Below, piece after piece: positions 1 through 15,875 of a stretch of 64,000 bases of DNA. Below the pieces are notes generated by a model. That model was not told where the DNA came from and ran no database searches. It saw only the letters and a program-made list of their open reading frames with translations. Within the stretch, counting starts at the first letter, position 1. The number at the start of each line of letters is the position of its first letter. The DNA is from Desulforhabdus amnigena (lineage in GTDB: Bacteria; Desulfobacterota; Syntrophobacteria; Syntrophobacterales; Syntrophobacteraceae). The stretch is from positions 4,358,501 to 4,422,500 of the forward strand of contig NZ_BSDR01000001.1 in NCBI RefSeq assembly GCF_027925305.1, written 5' to 3'. The position numbers and the translations under genes were made by a program.

Positions 1-368
1 GATTCGGGATGGTTCCCAAACTTCTGATGGTCTCCCGAAAGGCAGAGCATATTGCGGATTCCATGAGCGTAAACGCCGAGGATATCGCTTTGCATGGCCA
101 GGCGATTCCGGTCTCGACACACCATCTGGAAATTCGGTTCCAGCCCCTCCTGAAGCAATACGAGGGATGCCGCCCAACTGGACATTCGAACGACCGCAGT
201 CTGGTTGTCGGTGAGATTGACAGCGTCCACACAACCCTTCAGATGCCGGGCTTTTTCTTTGAGGTGTTCCACGTTGGCGCCCTGGGGAGGTCCGCATTCA
301 CCGGTAAAGGCAAAATGGCCGGCCTTCAGTACTTTTTCGAGATTGCTTCCTGATTTGTATTCGCTCAT
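1..368 (-). CDS. metF: Methylenetetrahydrofolate reductase (MetF), N-terminal part, truncated by window edge
   Basis: Reading leftward from an ATG at 368, the frame stays open to base 1 and gives about 122 residues beginning MSEYKSGSNLEKVLKAGHFA. It then runs through a TGECGPPQGANVEHLKEKA segment and VDAVNLTDNQTAVVRMSS, which matches the N-terminal TIM-barrel portion of MetF (an acidic residue and the V-N-x-T-D-N motif near the flavin/folate site). MetF interconverts methylene-THF and methyl-THF in the methyl branch of the Wood-Ljungdahl pathway. Its ATG overlaps the TGA of metV in an ATGA junction (365-368), so the two are translationally coupled; in acetogens such as Moorella, MetF and MetV form one complex with Hdr/MvhD proteins. 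The C-terminus lies outside the window. Confidence 0.9.
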   Translation of the reverse strand, partial: MSEYKSGSNLEKVLKAGHFAFTGECGPPQGANVEHLKEKARHLKGCVDAVNLTDNQTAVVRMSSWAASLVLLQEGLEPNFQMVCRDRNRLAMQSDILGVYAHGIRNMLCLSGDHQKFGNHPE

Positions 369-1033
369 TTTACCAGCTCCTCCCTGATCAACCGCCTGGG
401 GCCTCCATCCCGCGCCGTGGTCCAACTCTTTGGCGGTTTGAATTCGAGCAGCTCATCGAGACGCCCCTGCTCCATCATTTTTCGAACGATCATGTCCCAA
501 ATGCAGTCCACATCCTTGGATATTTCACACTTACCGTTATCGGATCCTCCACAGGGGCCGTTGAGAAGGCTTTTGGAACATCGCGCAATAGGGCAAAGAC
601 CACCAAAGTAGTGCACCACACACTGACCACATCCCGCACATCTTTCCGCCCAGACACCATGTTCGATGGCTCCTCCCATGAACTTGGTATTGACTCCCGG
701 AAAAATCCTCGAAGATGGAAAACGCTCAGCGAGAAACTGAGGTCCCACTCCGCAGGCTATCGATATGATCCCATCATATTCTTCGATGATCTCTTTCAAT
801 TCATCCACGTACTCGGGGTCGCACTGGCGTTCGAGGGTATGTTCACCCACTTCCAATGTATTTCCGTTTTTCTTTCCCGCGATTCTCAGAGTGGAAGCGA
901 GGATAGCTGCTTCTTTCGCGCCGCCCACGTTACAGACGGATACGCAGCCCTTGCACCCGACGACAAGAATCTTTTTGAGATCCTTGACCATTTCGATGAT
1001 TTCCTTAACCGGCTTTGCTTCGGCAATGATCAT
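365..1033 (-). CDS. metV: MetV-like zinc/Fe-S partner of methylenetetrahydrofolate reductase
   Basis: This 222-residue protein belongs to the methylenetetrahydrofolate reductase C-terminal domain family (MetV). It has an N-terminal region with V-x-C-x2-C-V (VVGCKGCVSVCNVGG) and a C-terminal Cys-rich stretch, CAGCGQCVV and GGLCPIARCSKSLLNGPCGG, typical of MetV metal binding. Family knowledge: MetV is needed for MetF activity and links it to the Hdr/MvhD electron-transfer module. I chose the ATG at 1033 over an in-frame GTG four codons upstream because GAGGTG sits just before the ATG. The gene follows the mvhD-like gene by about 19 nt and overlaps metF by 4 nt, so this is one operon. Confidence 0.9.
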   Translation of the reverse strand: MIIAEAKPVKEIIEMVKDLKKILVVGCKGCVSVCNVGGAKEAAILASTLRIAGKKNGNTLEVGEHTLERQCDPEYVDELKEIIEEYDGIISIACGVGPQFLAERFPSSRIFPGVNTKFMGGAIEHGVWAERCAGCGQCVVHYFGGLCPIARCSKSLLNGPCGGSDNGKCEISKDVDCIWDMIVRKMMEQGRLDELLEFKPPKSWTTARDGGPRRLIREELVK

Positions 1034-1052
1034 TTTGCACCTCACGGAGTGT

Positions 1053-1469
1053 TTACAGTTTCACCTTGGCTGTCACGGGGCCCAGCTTTTTCACCCTCTC
1101 TGTCATTTCGTACGCCACATCCACAAATTTCTGCCCCTGCGCCGCAGAAAGATTGAATACTCCGATCCTTTCGGGTTCAATGTCCAGTGCATCAAGAATG
1201 CGCTTTACATGATCCACTCGCTTGGTTGCCTTAGTGATTCCGCTGATAAATCGGCAACTGTCTTCCTGGCAGCCGGCCACATAAACACCGTCCGCACCTT
1301 CTTCAAAGGGTTTGAGAAGATGAAGCACTTCTATGCGGCCGGTGCACGGCACCTGGATGAGCCTGACGTTGTCCGGCAAAGTCTTTTTCATTCCATCGGC
1401 TACATTTGCCGCAGCTGAGACGCAATTGGTGCAGCAGAAAGCGATGATTTGCGGCTGAAAGTCGCTCAT
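1053..1469 (-). CDS. mvhD: MvhD/FlpD-type [2Fe-2S] electron-transfer subunit (MetFV-Hdr associated)
   Basis: A small protein of about 138 residues from the MvhD (methyl-viologen-reducing hydrogenase delta subunit) family. It carries the expected Cys set: FCCTNCVSAAANVADG near the N-terminus, VPCTGRIEVLHLL in the middle and VAGCQEDSCRF further on. These ligate a [2Fe-2S] cluster that passes electrons between HdrA and a partner dehydrogenase. The ATG at 1469 is preferred because AAGGAG lies 9 nt before it; in-frame starts extend upstream to 1517. It lies between the hdrA-like gene (gap of about 110 nt) and metV, so it most likely wires HdrA to the MetFV reductase. Confidence 0.88.
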   Translation of the reverse strand: MSDFQPQIIAFCCTNCVSAAANVADGMKKTLPDNVRLIQVPCTGRIEVLHLLKPFEEGADGVYVAGCQEDSCRFISGITKATKRVDHVKRILDALDIEPERIGVFNLSAAQGQKFVDVAYEMTERVKKLGPVTAKVKL

Positions 1470-1579
1470 AATCATGATCTCCTTGAGGTCGTTTCCGCTT
1501 GAATCGTTCTCACCCAACCGGCGCTCCTTCTCACGGAAACTATAACCTGAAAATGGATTTCTTATGCATTCTCCAGTGC

Positions 1580-4330
1580 TTATCCCAAAAGAATCGACGG
1601 AGCCGCACTTAACATTTGATCACTGCAGCCCGGCATGACAATGGCTTTGGCGGGGCATTCGGCCACGCATATTCCGCAGCCCTGGCAAAGCCCAGGGTCG
1701 ATGTAGGCCGCCCCCCTCTCGTGGTCGATGCGGGGTACATGGAACGGGCAGGTCCGGACACAGGTACAACACACCGCACACTTCTCCGGCTTCACTTCGG
1801 CCACCAATCCTTCCACCGTCACGGTATCCCGCGACAGAATTTCCAGAGCTCGCGCGGCCGCGCCCTTGGCCTGTGTGATACTTTCTCCGGTATCCTTGGG
1901 ATACAAGGCCAGGCCCGCCAGGTAAACCCCTTCACTGCTTGCATCCAGGGGTTTCAATTTTTGAGGCGATTCCCCAAAGAAACCGTTTGAATCCAAATTC
2001 ACTTTAAAGATATCAGCCAGTTCATTATTGTTGACCGGAGCGATGGCGGTTTGAAGGGAGACAAAATCGGTTTTCAGAACAACCGGTCTCCCAAGGATCG
2101 GGTCAAAAACCGTTACTTGAAGACGGTCTCCTTCGCCCTCCAGCGCCTGGACCACGGGTTTATTGTCAAGATCATAGCGAATGAAGAGAACCCCCTTCTG
2201 CCTGGCCTCTTTGTAGATATCCTCCCTTTGGCCAAAAGTCCGCATTTCCCTGTAGAGGATGTAGACATCCATATTCGGATTTTTCGTCTTGAGATCCAAA
2301 GCGGTTCGAACGGCAAAAGAGCAGCAAAGGTTGCTGCAATGCGGCATCTGGGGTTCTCTGGAACCGACGCACTGAATGAACACGGCGGAATCAGCCTTCT
2401 CAAAACGTGAGGGATTTTCGATCATTTTTGAGCTGAGTTCCTGCCAGCTATATACGTTCTTGTGTTGTCCGTAGAGGTATTCACGGGGAGTGACGGGGGC
2501 TCCGCCGGGAGCGAGAATGGTCACGCCATGGGCGACATCCAGCTCTTTTCCGTTCTGAAGAACGGTGGTGACGAAACTTCCCGCAAACCCCTTGTTGGCC
2601 TTTATCCTGGAATTCGTCAACACCGTAATGCGCTCATTTTCAGTGATCGCCTTCATCAATCCCTTCAAATAGGCCTGAGCGTCAGCCCCTTCCCAGGTGC
2701 ACCTGACATGGCGGCCATGCCCTCCAAGTTCCCCCTGCTTTTCAACAAGGGTCACCGGATATCCCTGGCAGGCAATGGCCAGAGCGCTCTCCATTCCCGA
2801 GACACCTCCTCCGACGACCAGCGCGCGCTTCACCACCGGAATTTCAATCACAGGCGCTGGAGAGAGAAGCAGAGCACGGGCAACACCCATGCGCAACCGA
2901 TCCTTGAGCTGTCCAGGCGCTTTTTCAATGTCTATGGCTCTCAGGTCTACGGTTTCGTAGAGATAGGGATTGAGGCCGGCCCGCCCGAGGGCTTTTTGAA
3001 GAAGCTTCTCATGGATGATAGGCGTGCAACTGGCAAAGACCAAACGATTTGCATCGGCATCCGTCAGCTTTTCCGTGAGTCTCTTCAAGACATCCCCTTC
3101 GGCGTGGAAGACTTCCGACACACCGGGCAGTTTCGCGGCATACTCTTCAATGCGTTGAGCCAAGGATGCATCCATGCCCGAACAGAGATGATAGGCCACG
3201 AGGATGCGGGGAGGGGCTTCCTCGCGTAATGTGGGAGAATTTTTGCCGGCTGAAGAGGCCTTGGGTTTCAAAAAGGAAGCGATTTCAGAGACGCAGGCTG
3301 TAGCCTGAATGATCGATTGCCCGATATCGTGAGGTCCGCTCACACCACCACAGACAAAGATTCCGGGCAGGCTGGTCGAAACAGGCTTGAACGGTTCAGA
3401 GCGAATATAGTGGTCCGGTTTGAGTTCAATGCCTATTTTCTCTGCCAGCTGCAGAGCTTGCGCAGAGGGTCTGAGCCCGACGGAGAGAACCACCATGTCG
3501 AAGACTTCCGTGTGGAGCTCTCCCACCTCATCTGCATAGCTGATGGATAGATCGTCCGAACCCGGCACCGGGGCTACTGAGTGAACCCTGCTTCGAACGA
3601 GGCGAACGCCTCTTGAAACGGCGTTGTTCAGGTAGTCTTCGAAGCCCTTCCCATGGGTTCTCATGTCCATGAAAAAAATGCAGGTTTCGATCTTTTCATC
3701 GAATTCTTTTGTATTGACCGCTTCTTTGAGAGCATGCATGCAACAGACAGAAGAGCAGTAAGGAGCATCGCACCGGTTGATCTCCCTCGATCCGACACAT
3801 TGGAGCCATGCAACTTTCTCGGGGACTTTGCCATCGGAGGGCCTTTTGAGAACACCCCTTTCGGGACCCAGAGGCTTTTGGATTTGCTCATATTCCACGC
3901 TGGTAACCACATTGGGGAGACGTCCGTAAGAATAGGTGTCATATGCCGACGGCTCAAAGGTCTCAAGGCCTGCAGCGAGTATAACCGCTCCGGCTCTCAG
4001 ATCTTTTTCATCGGGTCCGCTGCGAACGGAAATCTTGAAATCTCCTCTTGTTCCGGCAATATCCAATACCTGGGTATCCAGTAAAACGCTGATATTGGGG
4101 TCCTGTTCACAGGCCGCAATCCTGGGGTCCAGTTTGCAACACGCGCATAGGGGGTAGATTCGATGCAGGGCAGGCATCATGCCGCCAAGGTGCGCTGCAC
4201 GTTCAACGAGTTGAACATCGTATCCTGCAGAGGAAAGGGAAAGAGCAGCCTGAATGCCGGCAATTCCTCCTCCGATAACCATCACAGAGCTTTGCGCTTC
4301 ATTTTGAATCATAACATCGTTCTCCTGCAT
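1580..4330 (-). CDS. hdrA: HdrA-like flavoprotein with two FAD modules and C-terminal ferredoxin domain
   Basis: A 916-residue heterodisulfide reductase A-like protein. It has two consecutive flavin modules, each opening with a dinucleotide-binding motif: VIGGGIAGIQAALSLSSAGY near residue 18 and ALVVGGGVSGMESALAIA near residue 505. Each half has a GSRE motif followed by a Cys cluster (CDAPYCSSVCC and MPHCSNLCC). The N-terminal half also has the LCACCKLDPR segment where HdrA carries its CxxC-ILxPK cluster site. The C-terminus holds two [4Fe-4S] motifs, CAVCCTCVRTCPFHVP and CQGCGICVAECPAKAI. A single HdrA is roughly 650 residues, so this is a tandem fusion. Leading metV and metF, it probably supplies or takes electrons for methylene-THF reduction. 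An ATG six codons in (4312) has a better-spaced AGGAG and may be the true start. No hdrB or hdrC lies in this operon. Confidence 0.88.
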   Translation of the reverse strand: MQENDVMIQNEAQSSVMVIGGGIAGIQAALSLSSAGYDVQLVERAAHLGGMMPALHRIYPLCACCKLDPRIAACEQDPNISVLLDTQVLDIAGTRGDFKISVRSGPDEKDLRAGAVILAAGLETFEPSAYDTYSYGRLPNVVTSVEYEQIQKPLGPERGVLKRPSDGKVPEKVAWLQCVGSREINRCDAPYCSSVCCMHALKEAVNTKEFDEKIETCIFFMDMRTHGKGFEDYLNNAVSRGVRLVRSRVHSVAPVPGSDDLSISYADEVGELHTEVFDMVVLSVGLRPSAQALQLAEKIGIELKPDHYIRSEPFKPVSTSLPGIFVCGGVSGPHDIGQSIIQATACVSEIASFLKPKASSAGKNSPTLREEAPPRILVAYHLCSGMDASLAQRIEEYAAKLPGVSEVFHAEGDVLKRLTEKLTDADANRLVFASCTPIIHEKLLQKALGRAGLNPYLYETVDLRAIDIEKAPGQLKDRLRMGVARALLLSPAPVIEIPVVKRALVVGGGVSGMESALAIACQGYPVTLVEKQGELGGHGRHVRCTWEGADAQAYLKGLMKAITENERITVLTNSRIKANKGFAGSFVTTVLQNGKELDVAHGVTILAPGGAPVTPREYLYGQHKNVYSWQELSSKMIENPSRFEKADSAVFIQCVGSREPQMPHCSNLCCSFAVRTALDLKTKNPNMDVYILYREMRTFGQREDIYKEARQKGVLFIRYDLDNKPVVQALEGEGDRLQVTVFDPILGRPVVLKTDFVSLQTAIAPVNNNELADIFKVNLDSNGFFGESPQKLKPLDASSEGVYLAGLALYPKDTGESITQAKGAAARALEILSRDTVTVEGLVAEVKPEKCAVCCTCVRTCPFHVPRIDHERGAAYIDPGLCQGCGICVAECPAKAIVMPGCSDQMLSAAPSILLG

Positions 4331-5673: not shown

Positions 5674-5999
5674 AGGGAACGGTTCTGTTTTAAAGGGTGA
5701 GGAAGGAGGGCGATGTCGGTTGAAATCAATAAACAAAAAGGTTGGGTTGAGACAAAGAAGCTAAGTTCATCGTGTTGTTGGCTCATTCTTGTTGCAGCGA
5801 TCAGCGGTTGAATGCAGCGGGTGGGGTTTGCTCAACGGGAGGCTTCGAGCAGGGGATTTTTTTGTGATTGTAATCGCATGATACAATCATATTTGGCTTC
5901 GGAGTGCAACAGGCAACGATGGCTGAAGCCCCTTGCTTGATGAAATGTTCACGGCGGTCTTCCGTGAAAGGTTCGCTTACGCTTACGGAGTGGATGTTC

Positions 6000-8915
6000 A
6001 TGATGGAAAAAAAATCTTTGAAGCCAACAGTTGGCGCAGTAATGGTGGTGGGGGGCGGAGTGGCAGGTGTGCAATCGGCCCTCGATCTGGCTGAATCGGG
6101 CTATTACGTCTATCTTTTGGAAAAGAGCCCCTCTGTGGGGGGGGTGATGTTGCAGTTGGATAAGACGTTTCCAACAAATTGCCTGAGTTCGTGCCGTGGT
6201 TGTCGTGCTCAGCATGGCGGATTGGCCCAACTGGATGAAACGGTGCCGGTCAACGATTGTTCGACGTGCATCATTTCCCCCAAGCTCGTTGAAAGTGGTC
6301 GCCATGCCAATATCGAATTGATCCCCATGGTCGAGTTGGAGTCCGTGGAAGGGGAAGTGGGGAATTTTCAGGTCAAGGTTCGAAGAAGGCTTCGAAATCT
6401 CGATTGGACCACAGCTCCCCCCATGGCTTCTTTTGGTGATGAGGAAACGGTCAATCTGAATGTGGGTGCAATTATCCTTGCAACCGGTTTCAGGGTCTTC
6501 GATCCCGCAACGTATGATGTCTTCGGTTACGGCAGATATCCAAACGTGATCACCAGCCTGGAATTCGAATCGATCATGAATCCTTACGGCCCTTCTCGAG
6601 GGCGCCCATGTCGTCCTTCCGACAATCAGCTTCCCAAGAAGATTGCCTGGTTGCAATGCATCGGGTCTCGCGATTTGCATGAAGGAGCCCATGGTTATTG
6701 TTCCAGTGTCTGCTGTATGTATGCCATCAAAGAGGCTCTTGCGGCGAAGGATTATTCCAGCGATATCGATACGACGATTTTTTATATGGATATGCGCACC
6801 TTCGGCAAGGAATACGAGGCATATTACAATCTTGCCAGAAACGAGCTGGGAGTGCGTTTCGTCCGTTCCCGTATTCACAGTATAGAACCGGCCGGACCGG
6901 GTTCCGACGACCTCAAGCTGGAATATATGGATGACAAGGGAGAATTCCATGTTGAAAACTTTGACATGGTCGTGCTCTCGGTAGGGTTGGAGGCTCAGAA
7001 GGACGTCAAGGAACTGGCTGGTAAGTTGAAAATAGATCTCGACGAGAGTGGTTTTCCAATCGTTGGCGATTTTGCCCCTGTGGAGACTTCACGTCCGGGT
7101 ATCCTGGCCTGTGGAGCTTTTGCCGGACCCAAGGACGTTCCGTCCTCCATCACGGAAGCTTCCGCATCTTCCGCAGTGTCTGCGGCATTGCTCGCTGCAT
7201 CCCGCAATACCATGGTTTCTGAAAAATCTTATCCTCCCGAAGATCCGATCATTTATGAGAGGCCTCGTGTGGGCGTGTTTCTTTATCAGTGCGGTTCGGA
7301 ACAGACCGGCGTGCTCGATGCGGAGGCTGTTCGGAATTACGCAAAAAGACTGCCCAATGTGGTTTATGTTGCCGACACGGGTCTTTCCTGTGGCGTAGAA
7401 TCTCAAAAAGCCATTTGTGATGCCATAAAGGATAATCAGATCAACCGGGTTGTCGTGGCGGGATGCAGTCCGCGAACTCATGAAAAGTTTTTCCAGGATA
7501 CCATTCGGCAGGCGGGTCTGAACAAGCACCTGTTGGAAATGGCCAATCTTTTGAACCAGGATTCCTGGGTGCACAGTGACGATCCTGTCAGAGCGACGGA
7601 AAAGGCCAAGGATCTCATCGGTATGGCTGTTGCCAAAGCTGTTTTGCTGGAGCCCTTTGCCGAGCAGGAACAAAAGATCACGCAAAAAGCCCTGGTGGTC
7701 GGGGGTGGAGTTGCCGGCATGGTGGCGGCCAAGACACTGGCGGCTCAAGGGTATCCCGTTTGTCTGGTGGAAAAATCCTCGCAGTTGGGCGGATACGCAG
7801 GCAAGCTGTACAAGACCTGGCGCGGCAGTGCCATATCCCCTTTCGTTGATGAACTGGTGAAGAGTGTTCAGGAAAATCCTCAGATCGATGTGCGCCTCTC
7901 CAGCTCCATAACCCATGTGGAAGGCAATGTCGGTCATTTCCAGTCTACCATTCAAAATGGGGGAGGCGAGGAGGTCGTGGAGCATGGGGTTGCGATCCTG
8001 GCAACGGGTGGAAAGGAATTTATCCCCAATGAATACCAGTTCGGAAAGCATCCCCGCATCGTGACGCACCAGCAACTGGATCAACACTTCAAGGCGGGTG
8101 AACCCACCCTCAAGGCGATTCGGTCCGCTGTATTCATTCAGTGCGTCGGATCACGAGAACCCGATCGTCCCTATTGCAGTCGTGTATGCTGTACGCATTC
8201 CATTGAGAGCGCTCTCGAATTGAAGCGGATCAATCCGAATTGCGACGTGTATGTGCTCTACCGGGATATGAGGACCTACGGCGACCGGGAAAAGCTCTAC
8301 AGTGAAGCCCGCAAGGCGGGGGTTCTTTTCGTTCGTTTCTCGCTCGATAACAAGCCGAAGGTGGAATTGGTCGGTGGCGGACTTAAGGTAACGGTATTCG
8401 ATCCCATTCTTCAAAAAGACGTTGTGTTGTCCCCCGACCTCATCACGCTGGCGACGGCTATTCTGCCCAACGATGCGCAAGCATTGTCCGGGTTTTTTAA
8501 GGTTCCCGTCAACAAGGACGGTTTTCTCTGTGAGGCCCATCTCAAGATGCGCCCAGTGGATTGTTCGACAGACGGTGTTTTTCTGTGTGGTCTGGCTCAT
8601 TATCCCAAGTCTTTGGATGAAAGCATTGTGCAGGCTCAAGCGGCTGCATCACGGGCGGCAACTTTTCTCGCAAAGGAAAACATTCATTTCCACGGAGCTG
8701 TTGCTGTGACCAATCAATTGATGTGCAGCAGTTGTGGAACCTGCGTGAATATTTGTCCCTATTCAGCTCCGAAGTTCAACGACAAGGGAAAGGCTGAGAT
8801 CAGTCCCGTGCTTTGCAGAAGTTGCGGCCTTTGTGTGGCTTCCTGCCGCTCCGGCGCCATCAGTCTGCGTGGCTATGAGGATGCACAGATTTTTGCCATG
8901 ATCGACAGTTTATAG
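6000..8915 (+). CDS. hdrA: HdrA-like tandem-FAD flavoprotein of the Flx-Hdr cluster
   Basis: This protein has about 971 residues and the same plan as the HdrA-like protein at 1580-4330. The first flavin module opens with VVGGGVAGVQSALDLAESG. It is followed by a Cys-rich segment with DCSTCIISPKLVE, the HdrA N-terminal cluster motif, plus extra cysteines (NCLSSCRGC). GSRD and CSSVCC come next. The second flavin module opens with ALVVGGGVAGMVAAKTLAA and has GSRE and CSRVCC. The C-terminus carries two ferredoxin motifs, CSSCGTCVNICPY and CRSCGLCVASCRSGAI, the second lacking the usual CP. HdrA is the flavin subunit at which electron bifurcation occurs in Hdr complexes. I chose the ATG at 6000 because GGAG lies 9 nt upstream; 5994 and 6003 are alternatives. 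It leads the operon mvhD-flxCBA-hdrCB. Confidence 0.88.
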   Translation: MMEKKSLKPTVGAVMVVGGGVAGVQSALDLAESGYYVYLLEKSPSVGGVMLQLDKTFPTNCLSSCRGCRAQHGGLAQLDETVPVNDCSTCIISPKLVESGRHANIELIPMVELESVEGEVGNFQVKVRRRLRNLDWTTAPPMASFGDEETVNLNVGAIILATGFRVFDPATYDVFGYGRYPNVITSLEFESIMNPYGPSRGRPCRPSDNQLPKKIAWLQCIGSRDLHEGAHGYCSSVCCMYAIKEALAAKDYSSDIDTTIFYMDMRTFGKEYEAYYNLARNELGVRFVRSRIHSIEPAGPGSDDLKLEYMDDKGEFHVENFDMVVLSVGLEAQKDVKELAGKLKIDLDESGFPIVGDFAPVETSRPGILACGAFAGPKDVPSSITEASASSAVSAALLAASRNTMVSEKSYPPEDPIIYERPRVGVFLYQCGSEQTGVLDAEAVRNYAKRLPNVVYVADTGLSCGVESQKAICDAIKDNQINRVVVAGCSPRTHEKFFQDTIRQAGLNKHLLEMANLLNQDSWVHSDDPVRATEKAKDLIGMAVAKAVLLEPFAEQEQKITQKALVVGGGVAGMVAAKTLAAQGYPVCLVEKSSQLGGYAGKLYKTWRGSAISPFVDELVKSVQENPQIDVRLSSSITHVEGNVGHFQSTIQNGGGEEVVEHGVAILATGGKEFIPNEYQFGKHPRIVTHQQLDQHFKAGEPTLKAIRSAVFIQCVGSREPDRPYCSRVCCTHSIESALELKRINPNCDVYVLYRDMRTYGDREKLYSEARKAGVLFVRFSLDNKPKVELVGGGLKVTVFDPILQKDVVLSPDLITLATAILPNDAQALSGFFKVPVNKDGFLCEAHLKMRPVDCSTDGVFLCGLAHYPKSLDESIVQAQAAASRAATFLAKENIHFHGAVAVTNQLMCSSCGTCVNICPYSAPKFNDKGKAEISPVLCRSCGLCVASCRSGAISLRGYEDAQIFAMIDSL

Positions 8916-9014
8916 AAATACCTGCGGAAGTGGGGAGGAAATGAAAACGGTTGCAACAGCGCGTTTGTGCGGCCTGCCTCCGGCTTCCGGTCAGAAAGAA
9001 TAGGAGAAAGACAT

Positions 9015-9443
9015 ATGTCCGAGTGGGAACCGAAGATTGTTGCCTTCTTGTGCAATTGGAGTTCATATGCGGGAGCGGATTTTGCCGGCCTGAAACGTCT
9101 GAAATACCCTGCAAACATCCGTGTCGTTAAAGTGCCTTGTGCCGGCCGGATCAATCCCAAATTCATCCTTTCCGCCCTCCGTCATGGAGCTGACGGAGTG
9201 TGGATTTCCGGTTGCCACCCCGGGGAGTGCCACTTTGTCGAAGGCAATTACTATGCGCGGCGCAAGTTTGCCCTTCTGAAGAGCTTTCTGGAACACACGG
9301 GGATTGAACCGGGACGAATCCATTTTTCATGGATCCTGGCGACTGAGGCTAATAAATTTGCGCAAATGGCACAAGAGGTGGTTGACGGAGTGAAAGCGCT
9401 GGGGCCAGCCCGTCATTTCATCAAAAAGCAAGCCGAGGTGTAA
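9015..9443 (+). CDS. flxD: MvhD/FlxD-type electron-transfer subunit with one Cys replaced by Ser
   Basis: A 142-residue MvhD-family protein starting MSEWEPKIVAFLCNWSSYAG. It retains the family's GADFAG, VPCAGRI and ISGCHPGECHF blocks and the GNYYARRK stretch. MvhD proteins normally read C-N-W-C-S-Y-A-G-A-D at the N-terminal cluster site; here the second cysteine is serine (codon AGT), so the [2Fe-2S] ligation may be altered or use another residue. The ATG at 9015 has AGGAGA upstream; an earlier in-frame ATG at 8967 lacks a site and the family start fits 9015. The gene sits 4 nt before flxC. Its expected role is to pass electrons between HdrA and FlxABC. Confidence 0.86.
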   Translation: MSEWEPKIVAFLCNWSSYAGADFAGLKRLKYPANIRVVKVPCAGRINPKFILSALRHGADGVWISGCHPGECHFVEGNYYARRKFALLKSFLEHTGIEPGRIHFSWILATEANKFAQMAQEVVDGVKALGPARHFIKKQAEV

Positions 9444-9447
9444 ATCG

Positions 9448-10395
9448 ATGCGAGCATATACCGAGAAAATTCGAGAGGCGGCAAAACGCCTGTTGTCTGA
9501 AAATAAAGTGGACGTGGTGATCGGCTTTCGCGCTGGAACGATTCCCTTCATGAATGAACCGTTCATCGCAAAAAATGTGAAACAGGTGGACCAGCTCGTC
9601 TGGGATGGCAATTGCGGAATCAACTTGGCCAATTATATCACCAAGCGTACCGACCGGATCGCCGTTGTGGCCAAGGGGTGTGATTCCCGAAACATTGTTG
9701 TCCATATCATGGAAAACCAGATCAAACGGGATCAGCTCCACATCCTGGGGGCTCCCTGCAAGGGAATGATCGACAGAAGACGCATCCTTGCAGAACTCAA
9801 GGGAAAAGAACCGCTCCAGGTGGAGGAATTGGACGGCAAGGTGCAGATCAAGGGGCGTGATTTTGAGTTGAGCCTGGATCGCAAGGAATATTTGCAGGAA
9901 AACTGTGCCATCTGTATTCACCGCAACCCCGTCATTTACGATGAATTGCTGGGAGATCTGGTGGAAGAGCAGGATGTGGACCGTTACGAAGACATCCGCA
10001 AGGTGGAAGCGCTTCCTCCTGAAGAGCGTTGGCAATACTTTGAAGACCTGATCTCTTCCTGTATCCGGTGTTATGCCTGCCGGAACGCCTGCCCCGCCTG
10101 TTATTGTCCCACATGTTTTGTGGATGAATCCCGTCCACAGTGGGTGGGGAAGACCATCGATGCAACGGATACCCGGACTTTTCACTTCCTTAGGGCCTAT
10201 CACTTGGCTGGACGCTGTACGGATTGCGGCGCTTGCGAGCGGGCCTGTCCAATGGGAATCAAGGTGCGACAGTTCACCAAAAAGCTCGAGAAGGATGTGA
10301 AGGAACTTTATGGTTACGAGACCGGTTTGACCCTGGAAGGACGGCCTGCGCTCGATACTTACAAGCCCGGTGATCCAGAGTCGTTTATCAAGTGA
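9448..10395 (+). CDS. flxC: FlxC-like ferredoxin-type Fe-S protein
   Basis: A 315-residue protein. Its N-terminal part resembles the coenzyme F420 hydrogenase/dehydrogenase beta family (VAKGCDSRNIVVHIMENQI, LGAPCKGMIDRR). The C-terminal part is a dicluster ferredoxin, CIRCYACRNACPACYCPTCF and CTDCGACERACPMGIKV, with an additional NCAICIHRNP segment between. In the Flx (flavin oxidoreductase) clusters of sulfate reducers, such a ferredoxin-like subunit carries electrons from FlxA/FlxB toward FlxD and HdrA. It starts 4 nt after flxD with GAGGTG as ribosome-binding site. A 138-nt spacer separates it from flxB. The Flx assignment rests on the gene order and domain content. Confidence 0.8.
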   Translation: MRAYTEKIREAAKRLLSENKVDVVIGFRAGTIPFMNEPFIAKNVKQVDQLVWDGNCGINLANYITKRTDRIAVVAKGCDSRNIVVHIMENQIKRDQLHILGAPCKGMIDRRRILAELKGKEPLQVEELDGKVQIKGRDFELSLDRKEYLQENCAICIHRNPVIYDELLGDLVEEQDVDRYEDIRKVEALPPEERWQYFEDLISSCIRCYACRNACPACYCPTCFVDESRPQWVGKTIDATDTRTFHFLRAYHLAGRCTDCGACERACPMGIKVRQFTKKLEKDVKELYGYETGLTLEGRPALDTYKPGDPESFIK

Positions 10396-10533: not shown

Positions 10534-11583
10534 ATGTCGGAAATTTATATCGTCAGAGACAAATTTCCCGGAGTTGTACAACAACTGATGGGCCGCTACC
10601 GGGTGTATGGACCGGTCTTTCAAGGCCAATATCATGAATATGCCGAGCTGAAGAAGGCCGAAGATCTGGACTTGAATTTTCAGAATACCCGCATGTCTCC
10701 CAAGGGGTTGTTCCATCCGGAAGCTGATAAAATGTTTGAATATTCCCTGGCCGAAGGTGATCCGGAAGCCGGGATACTCAAGGAGATTCCCAAGGATTAT
10801 TCGCCGCGGGTTATCCTCGGAATCCGCCCTTGCGACGCCAAGGCGTTTCAACTGGATGATGTCAATTTTATAACGGAAACCATTAAAGACACGTGGTGGG
10901 TGGAGAGAAGAAAGAGCACGACGCTGGTGGGGCTGGCCTGCAACGCGCCCTGCAGCACCTGCTTTTGCACGACCGTGGGAACCGGCCCCTTTGATCCTTC
11001 GGGGTTGGATGTCCTGATGATCGATATGGGCGAAGGATACGTAGTTCGACCCATTACGGACAAGGGAAAAGAGCTGGTTTCCGGTATTGCCGGCGATCCC
11101 GTTCCGCAGGGTGCTTCCGAGAAGATTGAAACGCTCCGGAAAACGGCCGAAGACATGCTCGGGACTCAGTTCGATGTGAAGGCCTTTACCGAGAAGAATA
11201 CGCTGGATCTTTTCAATGATCCTCTTTGGGACGAAGTTCAGTTTTCCTGCATCAACTGCGGCACCTGCACCTTCTTGTGCCCGACCTGCTGGTGTTTCGA
11301 TATCCAGGACGAAGTCTGCGAGGACAAGGGGGAACGTTTGAGACTCTGGGATTCATGCATGTTCCCCCTTTTCACGCTCCACGGATCGGGGCATAATCCC
11401 CGTGCCCAGAAGCTTCAGCGTGTGCGGCAGCGTTTCATGCACAAATTGAAGTACTATCCCGAAAAGTACGGCAATGGGGTGGCTTGTGTGGGATGCGGTC
11501 GCTGTGTGAAGTCCTGTCCCGTCAATATCGATATTCGTCAAGTGGCCCGGATGATGGCGTCCGCTTGTGTCTGCCCGGCTTAA
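10534..11583 (+). CDS. flxB: FlxB-like Fe-S subunit (sulfhydrogenase beta/HydB type)
   Basis: A 349-residue protein of the 4Fe-4S dicluster family that includes sulfhydrogenase beta subunits and anaerobic sulfite reductase A. Diagnostic blocks are VILGIRPCDAKAF near residue 90, ACNAPCSTCFCTTVG near 130, then two ferredoxin motifs, CINCGTCTFLCPTCWC near 235 and CVGCGRCVKSCPVNID near 315. It couples the FAD/NAD(P)-binding FlxA to the other Fe-S subunits. It lies 24 nt before flxA with AGGAAGG upstream of its ATG. Within the cluster it would relay electrons between NAD(H) and ferredoxin-like FlxC. Confidence 0.85.
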   Translation: MSEIYIVRDKFPGVVQQLMGRYRVYGPVFQGQYHEYAELKKAEDLDLNFQNTRMSPKGLFHPEADKMFEYSLAEGDPEAGILKEIPKDYSPRVILGIRPCDAKAFQLDDVNFITETIKDTWWVERRKSTTLVGLACNAPCSTCFCTTVGTGPFDPSGLDVLMIDMGEGYVVRPITDKGKELVSGIAGDPVPQGASEKIETLRKTAEDMLGTQFDVKAFTEKNTLDLFNDPLWDEVQFSCINCGTCTFLCPTCWCFDIQDEVCEDKGERLRLWDSCMFPLFTLHGSGHNPRAQKLQRVRQRFMHKLKYYPEKYGNGVACVGCGRCVKSCPVNIDIRQVARMMASACVCPA

Positions 11584-11607: not shown

Positions 11608-12456
11608 ATGAAGGTGAACAATCCTTATTTGCCTTATCCTGTCCGGATCGAGTCCATCGTGACGGAATCGGAAGATCGTAATCAGAAGACTTTTAAGCTG
11701 GTCTTCCTGAATCCGGAAGATGAAGCCAAATTCAAATACATGCCCGGCCAGTTCGCCGAACTTTCTGTGGCGGGTCAGGGAGAAATTCCCATTGGTATCG
11801 CATCTTCCCCCACGGAAAAGGGGTTCATCAAATTTACAGTGAACAAGGTGGGGAAGGTCAGCAGATACCTTCACAATATGAAAGCTGGGGACATCATCGG
11901 AGTTCGGGGTCCGCTCGGGAACAGTTATCCCTGGGAAACCCTGCAGGGCAAAAATGTGGTGATCATCGGAGGCGGTTTTGCCTTCACGACGCTGCGGTCT
12001 TCGATCATATACATGCTCGAGCCTGAAAACCGGCCCAAGTATGGGAACATCGATGTCGTTTACGGCGCAAGATTTCCCGGCCTGCTGCTGTACAAGGACG
12101 AACTGGCGGCATGGGAGCGAAGGGACGACATCAATATGCACATCACCGTAGATGGAACGACGGATCCCAACTGGAAGTATAATGTAGGGTTTGTTCCGGC
12201 GGTGACGAAGGCTAAGGCCCCAAGTGCCGAGAATTCGTATGCCATCATCTGTGGTCCTCCCATCATGATCAAATTCACTCTTCCGGTTCTGACGGAGCTC
12301 GGCTTTCCTCCCGATCGCATCATTTCAAGCCTCGAGCTGCGTATGAAGTGCGGAATCGGGATCTGCGGACGATGCAACATCGGCACAGAATACGTTTGCA
12401 AGGATGGGCCGGTCTTCACGCTGGAAAAATTGTCCACGCTGCCCAATGAGTACTAA
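11608..12456 (+). CDS. flxA: FlxA-like FAD/NAD(P)-binding oxidoreductase
   Basis: A 282-residue ferredoxin-NADP reductase-like protein. It has an FAD-binding barrel (YMPGQFAELSVAG and GIASSPTEKGFIKFTV), a nucleotide-binding fold (VVIIGGGFAFTTLRSS), and a C-terminal [2Fe-2S] loop, MKCGIGICGRCNIGTEYVC, as in PyrK and sulfhydrogenase gamma subunits. It is the likely NADH entry or exit point of the complex. GGAGG lies only 1 nt before the ATG but 7 nt before an in-frame GTG at 11614, so the protein may begin at MNNPYLPYPV. The stop codon TAA is the first base triplet of a family A repeat, so the repeat abuts the gene exactly. Confidence 0.86.
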   Translation: MKVNNPYLPYPVRIESIVTESEDRNQKTFKLVFLNPEDEAKFKYMPGQFAELSVAGQGEIPIGIASSPTEKGFIKFTVNKVGKVSRYLHNMKAGDIIGVRGPLGNSYPWETLQGKNVVIIGGGFAFTTLRSSIIYMLEPENRPKYGNIDVVYGARFPGLLLYKDELAAWERRDDINMHITVDGTTDPNWKYNVGFVPAVTKAKAPSAENSYAIICGPPIMIKFTLPVLTELGFPPDRIISSLELRMKCGIGICGRCNIGTEYVCKDGPVFTLEKLSTLPNEY

Positions 12457-12909: not shown

Positions 12910-14130
12910 ATGGAGCCGTTGCTGTTGACCAAGCGTGAAAAGCGCAAATTGGCGAGCCAATATGCCGACTTGTGCCTGACATGCGGTACGTGTGCGGGAG
13001 GTTGTCCAGTCACGGGAGTGGATGGACTGGATATTCGGAAGGTGGTCCGCCTGGCGCTTTTGGGACTGGATCAGGAGGTCATTGATTCCAAGTTTCCCTG
13101 GGTATGCACCATGTGCGGACGTTGCGAATATGCCTGCCCCATGAACATTGATCTTTTGACATTGATTCGTTCCGCTCGAAGCCTGAGGGCCAGGGATAAG
13201 GTGCCGGGAGTCCTTCACAAAGGCGTAGCCATGTGCCTGAAGACCGGCAACAATGTGGGGATTCCCAAGGAAGATTTTATATTTTTGCTGCAGGACCTTG
13301 GAGAGGAGTTGGCGGAAGAGCTTCCCGGGTTCGAAGTCCCCGTAGATAAAAAGGGCGCAAAATACCTTTTCACCATCAACTCCAAAGAACCTTTCGCCGA
13401 ACCCGAAGACATGATGTACTGGTGGCGTATCCTTTATGCAGCCAATGAATCCTGGACCACTACCTCAGAGAACTGGGAAGGCGTCAACTGGGGTTTGTTT
13501 ACCGGTGATGATGAGGCCATGAAAGAGATTGTGGGCCGTATCGTCAAAAACTACAAGGAACTAGGGTGTGAATATCTCGTCCTGCCGGAATGAGGGCACG
13601 CCTATTACGCGACCAGGCTTGGTCTGCAAAAATGGTATGCAAACGAAGGCGTTAAGTTTGTAAGCGTTCATGATCTTTTGAAGAAATATATAGAAGAAGG
13701 CCGCATCAAGATAGACAAATCCGTCCATGAAGAATTGACGACCCTCCATGACCCCTGCAATTATGGCCGTAAGAGTGAGCGCACTTTCGGCCACGGATAT
13801 TACGAAGAACCTCGTTGGGTGACCCAGCAGTGTTGCGAAAACTATGTGGAGATGCATCCCAACCGTGCGAACAATCTGTGCTGTGGTGCAGGTGGGGGAG
13901 CCTGGGCGAGCCCGTATGTTGAAGAGAGGATCTTTTACGGTCGGACAAAAGCCAAGCAAATCAAGGATACAGGCGCAAAGCTCCTGATCGCTCCCTGCCA
14001 CAACTGCCGCGACCAGATCATGAAGAGCCTGCGCAAGGAATATGACTTCATGGATGTGGAGGTCAAGTATCTTTGGGAATTGGTGGCGGACTCCCTGATC
14101 ATCGAACCCAGGGAAGAAGCAGAAGAATAG
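12910..14130 (+). CDS. Selenocysteine-containing HdrC/HdrB fusion (HdrD/DsrK-like Fe-S subunit)
   Basis: One frame of 407 codons including the stop is interrupted only by TGA at 13591-13593 (residue 228), and I read this as selenocysteine. N-terminal to it is an HdrC-like ferredoxin domain, CLTCGTCAGGCPVTG and CTMCGRCEYACPMNI. C-terminal to it is one complete CCG domain: DPCNYGR, NLCCGAGGG and APCHNCRDQ. The TGA falls in LVLPE-U-GHAYYATRLG, exactly where HdrD/DsrK/GlpC relatives have the conserved E-C-G-H-A cysteine. There is no frame change across the site, and a stem-loop suited to a bacterial SECIS follows. The protein would carry a noncubane [4Fe-4S] cluster that reduces a disulfide-like or unknown acceptor, completing an Flx-Hdr complex. 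A strong terminator follows. A nonsense mutation is the alternative, but the intact homologous downstream half argues against it. Confidence 0.88.
13591..13628 (+). promoter_or_regulatory. Putative bacterial SECIS element following the in-frame UGA
   Basis: After the TGA (13591-13593) a hairpin GACCA-GGCT-TGGTC occupies 13611-13624, a 5-bp perfect stem with a 4-nt loop starting GG. The loop lies about 22 nt beyond the UGA. Known bacterial SECIS elements sit immediately downstream of UGA within the coding region, with a short upper stem and a G in the apical loop, which this fits. Folding was judged by eye only. Confidence 0.6.
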
Positions 14131-14651: not shown

Positions 14652-15875
14652 ATGAGTAAGAAACAAGATGTCAAGAAAAGCAGGAAAGTTGAATTCAGAC
14701 TGACTCCCGAAGAGTGCAGCGAACTGGAAATGATCGCTGACCGGTTGATGGTTCAAGATCCCAATGGCGAGAGCCTTGGGAACTACCTTAAAACCCTTCG
14801 TGGTGTGTTGGGCGGCAGAGAGCACCTCATAGCGGCTTTGATCGATAAGCTCGGCAAGAATCCGACATCAGTGGGGTTCAAGACTTTTGTGGCCGTCAAG
14901 GACAGCATTCAGGGAAAACAGCTTCAACGGGTAGTCAAGCAGACTGGATATCGTTTTGCTCAAAAAGGTTTCGTTGTGGAACCCGGTGGGGCTTCCGCCG
15001 AAAAAGTGGTTTTGATTCCGAAGGAGGTTCGAAAACCTCTGGCGTACCTGATTCCGGCGGAAGGGACCTTCGGCTTTATGACCGCTCTGATTCCAGAGAG
15101 CAAGTATCCCGCACCCATGGCGGTTTCAGCATTTTTCGAGGATGACTTCGATCACCTGTTTGTTCGTGTCGTAGATAGTTCCTATCGGACTTTTAGAGAA
15201 TACATTCAAAAGATTGGCGAGAATCTTTCAAGAAAGAAACCTTGTGAGGTCCCTATCCGGCATGCTGCGAGAGTCTTTTTTGAACTCCTTGAGTGGTTCC
15301 CCAAAAAGGAAAGCCTCCCTGAAATAGAGGAAGCCAGGCAGCTGCTCCAGCCATATCATGATCCCCAAGAGCCGCCGTATGCGTATGAATTGATGCCTGC
15401 TTTAGACGATCGCGAACGGCTCTTTCATGATGTGGATGTTGAGGCGCTTTGGGAAGATATCGACCCATCCTGGCTCGTATTTCCCCAAAGTGATTTGTTG
15501 CCCTACTGGGAAAAAATCCAGGAACTGGAAACCCCGGTTTTGGTTTTGCCGTCTGAAGTTCAACACGAACGCATCACGGATTGGCTCAGAAAGGCTGTAG
15601 ATGAAATATGTGTGGGAGCGCGGAGGTTTTTCTATCAGCGTTTTTTTGAAGAACAAGCATTGCTCTTCAAACTCTCCTCCGAGGAATCAGCGGCCCTGGG
15701 CTGTTGGGCTATTGCACAGCACCTGAGGAGCGGGGCGCCCGCAGGTGAAAATCCCTTTTTTATCCGTCTGGTCGTCTATTCCATTCAGTATCACTGGGGT
15801 GAAGAGGCCAAAACACAGTCCGTTCAAGACGAGGAGTATCGGGAAAGCGAGTCTGGGTTGATCCTTCCGAAGTAG
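14652..15875 (+). CDS. Conserved-looking hypothetical protein, 407 residues
   Basis: A soluble, acidic-looking protein with no signal peptide or membrane segment. The first 15 residues are strongly basic (MSKKQDVKKSRKVEFRLTPE), followed by TPEECSELEMIADRLMV, which resembles the start of a ribbon-helix-helix or helical DNA-binding region. The rest, including a Trp-rich C-terminal part (LEALWEDIDPSWLVFPQ-like), matches no family I recognise. It is flanked on both sides by family C repeats and reads alone in its direction before the YjbQ-like gene. The reading frame is long and codon use looks ordinary, so it is likely a real gene. No clear ribosome-binding site precedes the ATG. Function unknown. 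Confidence 0.65.
   Translation: MSKKQDVKKSRKVEFRLTPEECSELEMIADRLMVQDPNGESLGNYLKTLRGVLGGREHLIAALIDKLGKNPTSVGFKTFVAVKDSIQGKQLQRVVKQTGYRFAQKGFVVEPGGASAEKVVLIPKEVRKPLAYLIPAEGTFGFMTALIPESKYPAPMAVSAFFEDDFDHLFVRVVDSSYRTFREYIQKIGENLSRKKPCEVPIRHAARVFFELLEWFPKKESLPEIEEARQLLQPYHDPQEPPYAYELMPALDDRERLFHDVDVEALWEDIDPSWLVFPQSDLLPYWEKIQELETPVLVLPSEVQHERITDWLRKAVDEICVGARRFFYQRFFEEQALLFKLSSEESAALGCWAIAQHLRSGAPAGENPFFIRLVVYSIQYHWGEEAKTQSVQDEEYRESESGLILPK

Follow-up and report, generated by a model that had tools for sequence, protein, structure and literature searches.

The Flx-Hdr gene cluster of Desulforhabdus amnigena, a sulfate reducer of Syntrophobacter type, includes a gene for an HdrD/DsrK-like protein, a fusion of HdrC and HdrB, in which a single in-frame TGA codon is almost certainly translated as selenocysteine (Sec), as judged by comparison with homologous sequences. 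That this protein (hereafter Sec-HdrD) both contains Sec and belongs to the Flx-HdrA complex is probable. The gene lies on the plus strand of the window, the whole stretch of 64,000 nucleotides that was analysed, and its features are as follows:

12910..14127, plus strand: HdrD/DsrK-like (HdrC+HdrB fusion) selenoprotein of 406 amino acids (frame with one TGA, Pfam and NCBIfam matches, orthologues)
12964..13149, plus strand: HdrC-like 4Fe-4S dicluster domain with C22, C25, C28, C32, C66, C69, C72 and C76 (Fer4_8, invariant Cys)
13360..13680, plus strand: degenerate first CCG domain, limits approximate (alignments with HdrB, HdrD-like and EtfD proteins)
13591..13593, plus strand: TGA codon for selenocysteine, residue 228 (TGA in close orthologues, TGC or TGT in Cys homologues)
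13609..13627, plus strand: SECIS hairpin (fold, missing synonymous change at A234, T235 and G238, compensatory changes in other Sec clades)
13741..14019, plus strand: second CCG domain with the complete noncubane-cluster motif C283, C324, C325, C363 and C366 (PF02754, Cys invariant or nearly so)

The frame of 406 codons starts with an ATG that is preceded by a good ribosome-binding sequence, is closed by a TAG at 14128–14130, and is open except for the TGA (context VLPE-U-GHAYYATRLGLQ). An earlier sequence-only reading of this DNA had claimed that one frame continues through the TGA with Hdr-family homology on either side, and the domain searches agree: Fer4_8 matches residues 19–80, CCG (PF02754) matches residues 278–370 (both Pfam), and the NCBIfam profiles for HmcF, TmcB and DsrK span residue 228. 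The scores against these profiles are far under the curated cut-offs (DsrK, 165 against 400 bits; HmcF, 197 against 750; TmcB, 185 against 735), and we therefore regard Sec-HdrD as a relative of HmcF, TmcB and DsrK and not as one of them. It shares with them the dicluster part and one intact CCG domain, but differs in having Sec in place of Cys and no linked membrane complex.

The same TGA is found throughout the close relatives of the gene. Specifically, in 60 genomes of relatives the best match nearly always contains exactly one in-frame TGA, and all 38 distinct close orthologues (77–93 per cent identity) have TGA as the codon for residue 228, with no Cys replacement among them. Across 83 relatives from named public genomes, identified in a scan of GTDB genomes and including the isolate Desulfacinum hydrothermale DSM 13146, which carries the orthologue, the column holds TGA (64 sequences), TGC (17) or TGT (2) and no other codon. 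Cys-type homologues have Cys at this place, including DsrK of the same genome (TGC, in the motif E-C-G-H) and a 60 per cent identical paralogue (also TGC), which bears out the proposal that the TGA stands in for the Cys of a conserved E-C-G-H-A motif. Sec predominates on a tree of 160 sequences (125 rows, with Cys in 32 and another residue in 3), whose supported branches require the Sec label to have changed at least 12 times. L110 (genome G012), a Cys paralogue, contains a single in-frame TAG and was for that reason omitted from the protein alignment of relatives. One small branch of paralogues encodes Leu (TTA), Thr (ACC) and Gly (GGC) at the Sec column (L113, L115 and L116, in genomes G021, G025 and G024, respectively), and residue 228 is therefore not indispensable in this branch; L113 and L115 still have an intact SECIS-like hairpin, which would fit a recent loss of Sec.

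A stem-loop with a loop opening on GG had been placed at 13611–13624, and its sequence, GACCA-GGCT-TGGTC, is exactly as described, with an extension by GC/GC at 13609–13610 and 13626–13627. The whole hairpin, GC-GACCA-GGCT-TGGTC-(T)-GC, pairs 13609–13615 with 13620–13627 around the loop GGCT (13616–13619) and has a bulged T at 13625. Like a SECIS element, it lies just downstream of the UGA, its loop starting 22 nt past that codon, and a G opens the loop. Taken in one sequence and scored by a simple SECIS rule, the hairpin is no better than chance: 20 per cent of synonymous reshuffles equal it, and an equally good hairpin turns up at roughly half of the gene's codon positions. The fold of the single sequence has z-scores of −1.1 over 47 nt and −2.2 over 28 nt, and Rfam at gathering scores gave no match across the window. 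Because the hairpin is unremarkable in a single sequence, the case for a SECIS element rests on comparison.

Of the 195 columns that offer four synonymous codons or more in the 38 orthologues, only three lack any synonymous change, and all three (A234, T235 and G238) are in the hairpin; pS is 0.36 over codons 229–243 versus 0.81–0.86 elsewhere. Three other clades contributed 19 Sec-coding sequences, and in these a 7-bp helix at the corresponding site is 94 per cent paired, with double changes at six of the seven pairs, whereas sliding the partner by 1–3 columns in the same sequences leaves at most 44 per cent paired. RNAalifold recovers the same helix. In the D. amnigena clade, the inner stem is shifted and one T is bulged; compensatory changes in this bulged-T form occur in relatives of Desulfarculus type that share the Flx cluster (AACTA-GGCT-TAGTT). 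Some Cys relatives retain a fossil of the stem without the loop G; in the Cys paralogue L088, for example, the stem is kept and the GG of the loop is lost.

The stretch of protein from the TGA to the next start codon is conserved (pN/pS of 0.18), and the constraint on the protein runs up to and beyond that start codon. The notion that the TGA is a true stop, in a pseudogene, by a sequencing error or between two separate genes, could draw on the non-significance of the single-sequence hairpin and on a TTG-started ORF at 13678, but it has next to no probability left and is ruled out by the identical TGA in dozens of independent genomes, which therefore is not a misread TGC or TGT, by Cys homologues that read straight through, and by purifying selection on codons 229–256, from the TGA to the first possible start codon.

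The genome also has the means to insert Sec: a search for selA, selB, selD and tRNA-Sec, suggested by the sequence-only reading, found all four, each above its cut-off and the tRNA with anticodon TCA. The selD gene itself holds an in-frame TGA that needs readthrough, and near it lies an MvhD-like frame with CTW-TGA-AYAA (L040); both are likely to be further selenoproteins of this genome.

Upstream of the Sec-HdrD gene, five genes complete the cluster:

5904..8915, plus strand: HdrA of the Flx-Hdr cluster (NF040770 HdrA2, 790 bits, below the cut-off of 1100; synteny)
8967..9443, plus strand: MvhD/FlxD subunit (PF02662)
9448..10395, plus strand: FlxC-like 4Fe-4S subunit (Fer4_8, synteny)
10534..11583, plus strand: FlxB-like 4Fe-4S subunit of the AsrA/sulfhydrogenase-beta type (PF17179, TIGR02910)
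11608..12456, plus strand: FlxA-like FAD/NAD-binding subunit (PF00175, PF00970, PF10418)

The proposed Flx-Hdr cluster is real, with FlxA, FlxB, FlxC, FlxD (MvhD) and HdrA together, and the plus-strand order hdrA, mvhD, flxC, flxB, flxA, Sec-hdrD recurs in 13 or more other genomes; most are of Syntrophobacter type, and metagenome-assembled genomes (MAGs) of Desulfarculus type are also among them. All these parts are found in a different order in a Thermodesulfatator MAG, where Sec-HdrD is represented by a 39 per cent identical relative, and four orthologues (L081, L083, L085 and L089) occur without a visible Flx cluster. The AsrA/AsrB-like partners could belong to a different NADH module. The cluster contains no separate HdrB or HdrC, only the one HdrC+HdrB fusion. 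It thereby differs from FlxABCD-HdrABC of Desulfovibrio vulgaris, in which the equivalents of HdrA, the MvhD-like FlxD, FlxC, FlxB and FlxA are likewise clustered: here, one HdrD-like selenoprotein replaces HdrB and HdrC. As in D. vulgaris, DsrC is encoded in the genome, in one copy. A second set of genes, HdrA-MvhD-MetV, is on the minus strand at 365–4330, and matches to HdrB and HdrC lie just beyond the window.

Several observations concern the neighbours of Sec-HdrD and its relatives. In Desulfobacterota outside the Syntrophobacter group, seven relatives (L166, L176, L179, L185, L194, L195 and L208) stand beside HdrA, MvhD and MetV (methylene-THF reductase C-terminal family), several of them with a TGA-coded MvhD. 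The MvhD/FlxD subunit of the D. amnigena cluster has Ser (AGT, 9060–9062) at residue 32, in CNW-S-SYAG, a position of the FlpD motif that holds Cys or Sec in almost every relative; this Ser recurs in one relative, L079. On the 3' side of the Sec-HdrD gene, 14652–15875 encodes a 407-amino-acid protein without a Pfam or NCBIfam match that is present in most orthologous loci, where its gene adjoins a YjbQ/UPF0047 gene.

Sec-HdrD is a member of a known selenoprotein family, because Sec-containing 'Fe-S oxidoreductase (GlpC)' proteins have been listed since 2006 (PMC1794560; PMC9312934; PMC13188914), and their UGH motif has been given (PMC13188914). Consistent with this assignment, EUGHA occupies residues 227–231 of a COG0247-type protein with a Fer4_8 dicluster and CCG. 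Syntrophobacter fumaroxidans is listed with three Sec GlpC proteins (PMC1794560), and genome G006, which we infer to be this species, has exactly three full-length TGA-containing matches, one of them a 91 per cent identical orthologue of Sec-HdrD that was probably among the three counted in 2006. The assignment to this family, whose reference sequence is WP_174406253.1, was made through the motif and the S. fumaroxidans count. With the GlpC/COG0247/PTHR43551 UGH family, the D. amnigena protein has in common the U-G-H motif, the organism group and the operon partners HdrA and MvhD/FrhD (PMC1794560; PMC13188914); it differs in being linked to flxABC and not to hydrogenase genes. HdrD4 of Desulfobacterium autotrophicum, an HdrC+HdrB fusion without a membrane part, has also been reported to contain Sec (PMC2702500); the likeness is drawn from this published description, and the operon context may differ. 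In the literature, the family takes its name from GlpC and its Sec has been given no structural role, and our literature search found no paper that ties selenocysteine to HdrD in an Flx cluster. What we add to this known family is therefore one member, together with the Flx link and a structural reading of Sec228, neither of which we found stated.

The structural reading starts from alignments. HMMER aligns E-U228-G-H230-A with T-C581-P-H583-C584 of EtfD (PDB 9ojn). There, Cys581 serves as a ligand to a linear 3Fe-4S cluster, and the noncubane cluster in the other CCG domain is coordinated by His583 (PMC13083937). In a profile alignment with the HdrB proteins of the same genome, residue 228 corresponds to the first Cys of a CxxC. 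Pairwise tblastn with a few distant paralogues had placed it at the second Cys, a candidate overruled by EtfD, the HdrB profile and a bridging paralogue (NCPEGYY), all of which point to the first. The predicted structure (mean pLDDT of 87, pTM of 0.88; a model without clusters) is closest in fold to EtfD (E-value 7e-15), then to HdrB and HdrC. EtfD and Sec-HdrD share the domain order of the soluble part; EtfD differs in having membrane helices, the linear cluster in its first CCG domain and no Sec.

An HdrB with two noncubane clusters has the five-Cys motif in both CCG domains. In Sec-HdrD, the motif is complete in the second, whereas the first keeps only one of the five cluster positions, residue 228 with its Sec, followed by His230. 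The sequence-only reading had linked Sec to the noncubane-cluster site of an HdrC/HdrB fusion: the fusion stands, but Sec228 sits in the first, cluster-less CCG domain, and the intact five-Cys site is in the second. On the strength of the EtfD and HdrB alignments, the missing Cys of the first motif, the complete second motif and the EtfD-like predicted fold, we read Sec228 as a selenol that most likely stands alone, facing the noncubane cluster that remains. Sec may make this site more nucleophilic.

Disulfide cleavage in HdrB takes place between two noncubane clusters. Sec-HdrD is probably the catalytic selenoprotein of the Flx-HdrA complex, standing in for separate HdrB and HdrC. By analogy with the known Flx-Hdr model, electrons from NADH would enter at FlxA and pass through FlxB, FlxC and MvhD to HdrA, which would bifurcate them to ferredoxin and, through the two N-terminal 4Fe-4S clusters of Sec-HdrD, to the noncubane cluster of its second CCG domain. 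Sec228 would face this remaining cluster and either take the second sulfur as a selenenyl-sulfide or shuttle sulfur, and the substrate would be DsrC or a small disulfide; Sec228 may thus serve as a second thiol-accepting group, perhaps for DsrC. Such a selenol/cluster mechanism is a possibility to which we give somewhat less than even weight. A little more tentative still is the broader proposal that heterodisulfide reductase has, in this branch, a selenol doing the work of one of its two noncubane 4Fe-4S clusters, giving a disulfide-splitting site of 'one cluster plus one selenocysteine' in an NADH-driven bifurcating Flx-HdrA-HdrD complex.

Sec228 might instead directly ligate the noncubane cluster of the second CCG domain and tune its potential, without acting as a free catalytic selenol. 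His230 aligns with EtfD His583, which reaches over the domain interface to ligate the noncubane cluster (PMC13083937), so residues of the Sec228 loop can reach that cluster, but the EtfD residue that matches Sec228 itself, Cys581, ligates the linear cluster and not the noncubane one (PMC13083937), and the second CCG domain supplies all five Cys itself; direct ligation is accordingly unlikely, if far from negligible. Somewhat less probable again is the view that Cys would do equally well and that Sec merely guards against oxidation or adds a small gain in rate. The many exchanges of Sec and Cys on the tree, the Cys paralogues in the same genome and the Leu, Thr or Gly of a few paralogues fit this view, but the retention of Sec in every one of the close orthologues argues against it. 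We consider it improbable that the first CCG domain holds a metal or a small leftover cluster bound by Sec228 and other groups: Sec228 is the one kept ligand position of the former cluster site, and the EtfD site holds a smaller, linear cluster (PMC13083937), but the remaining Cys of the first motif are gone.

Sec-HdrD is well supported as a selenoprotein and probably forms the disulfide-reducing end of an NADH-dependent Flx-Hdr complex in bacteria that reduce sulfate or live syntrophically. Through the alignment with EtfD and HdrB, a listed name, 'Fe-S oxidoreductase, UGH', becomes the hypothesis that selenium occupies the place of a former cluster ligand, opposite the remaining noncubane cluster. 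Together, the gene neighbourhood and the position of Sec suggest that selenium may have a role in breaking disulfides, and the hypothesis would tie selenium supply to the energy metabolism of these bacteria.
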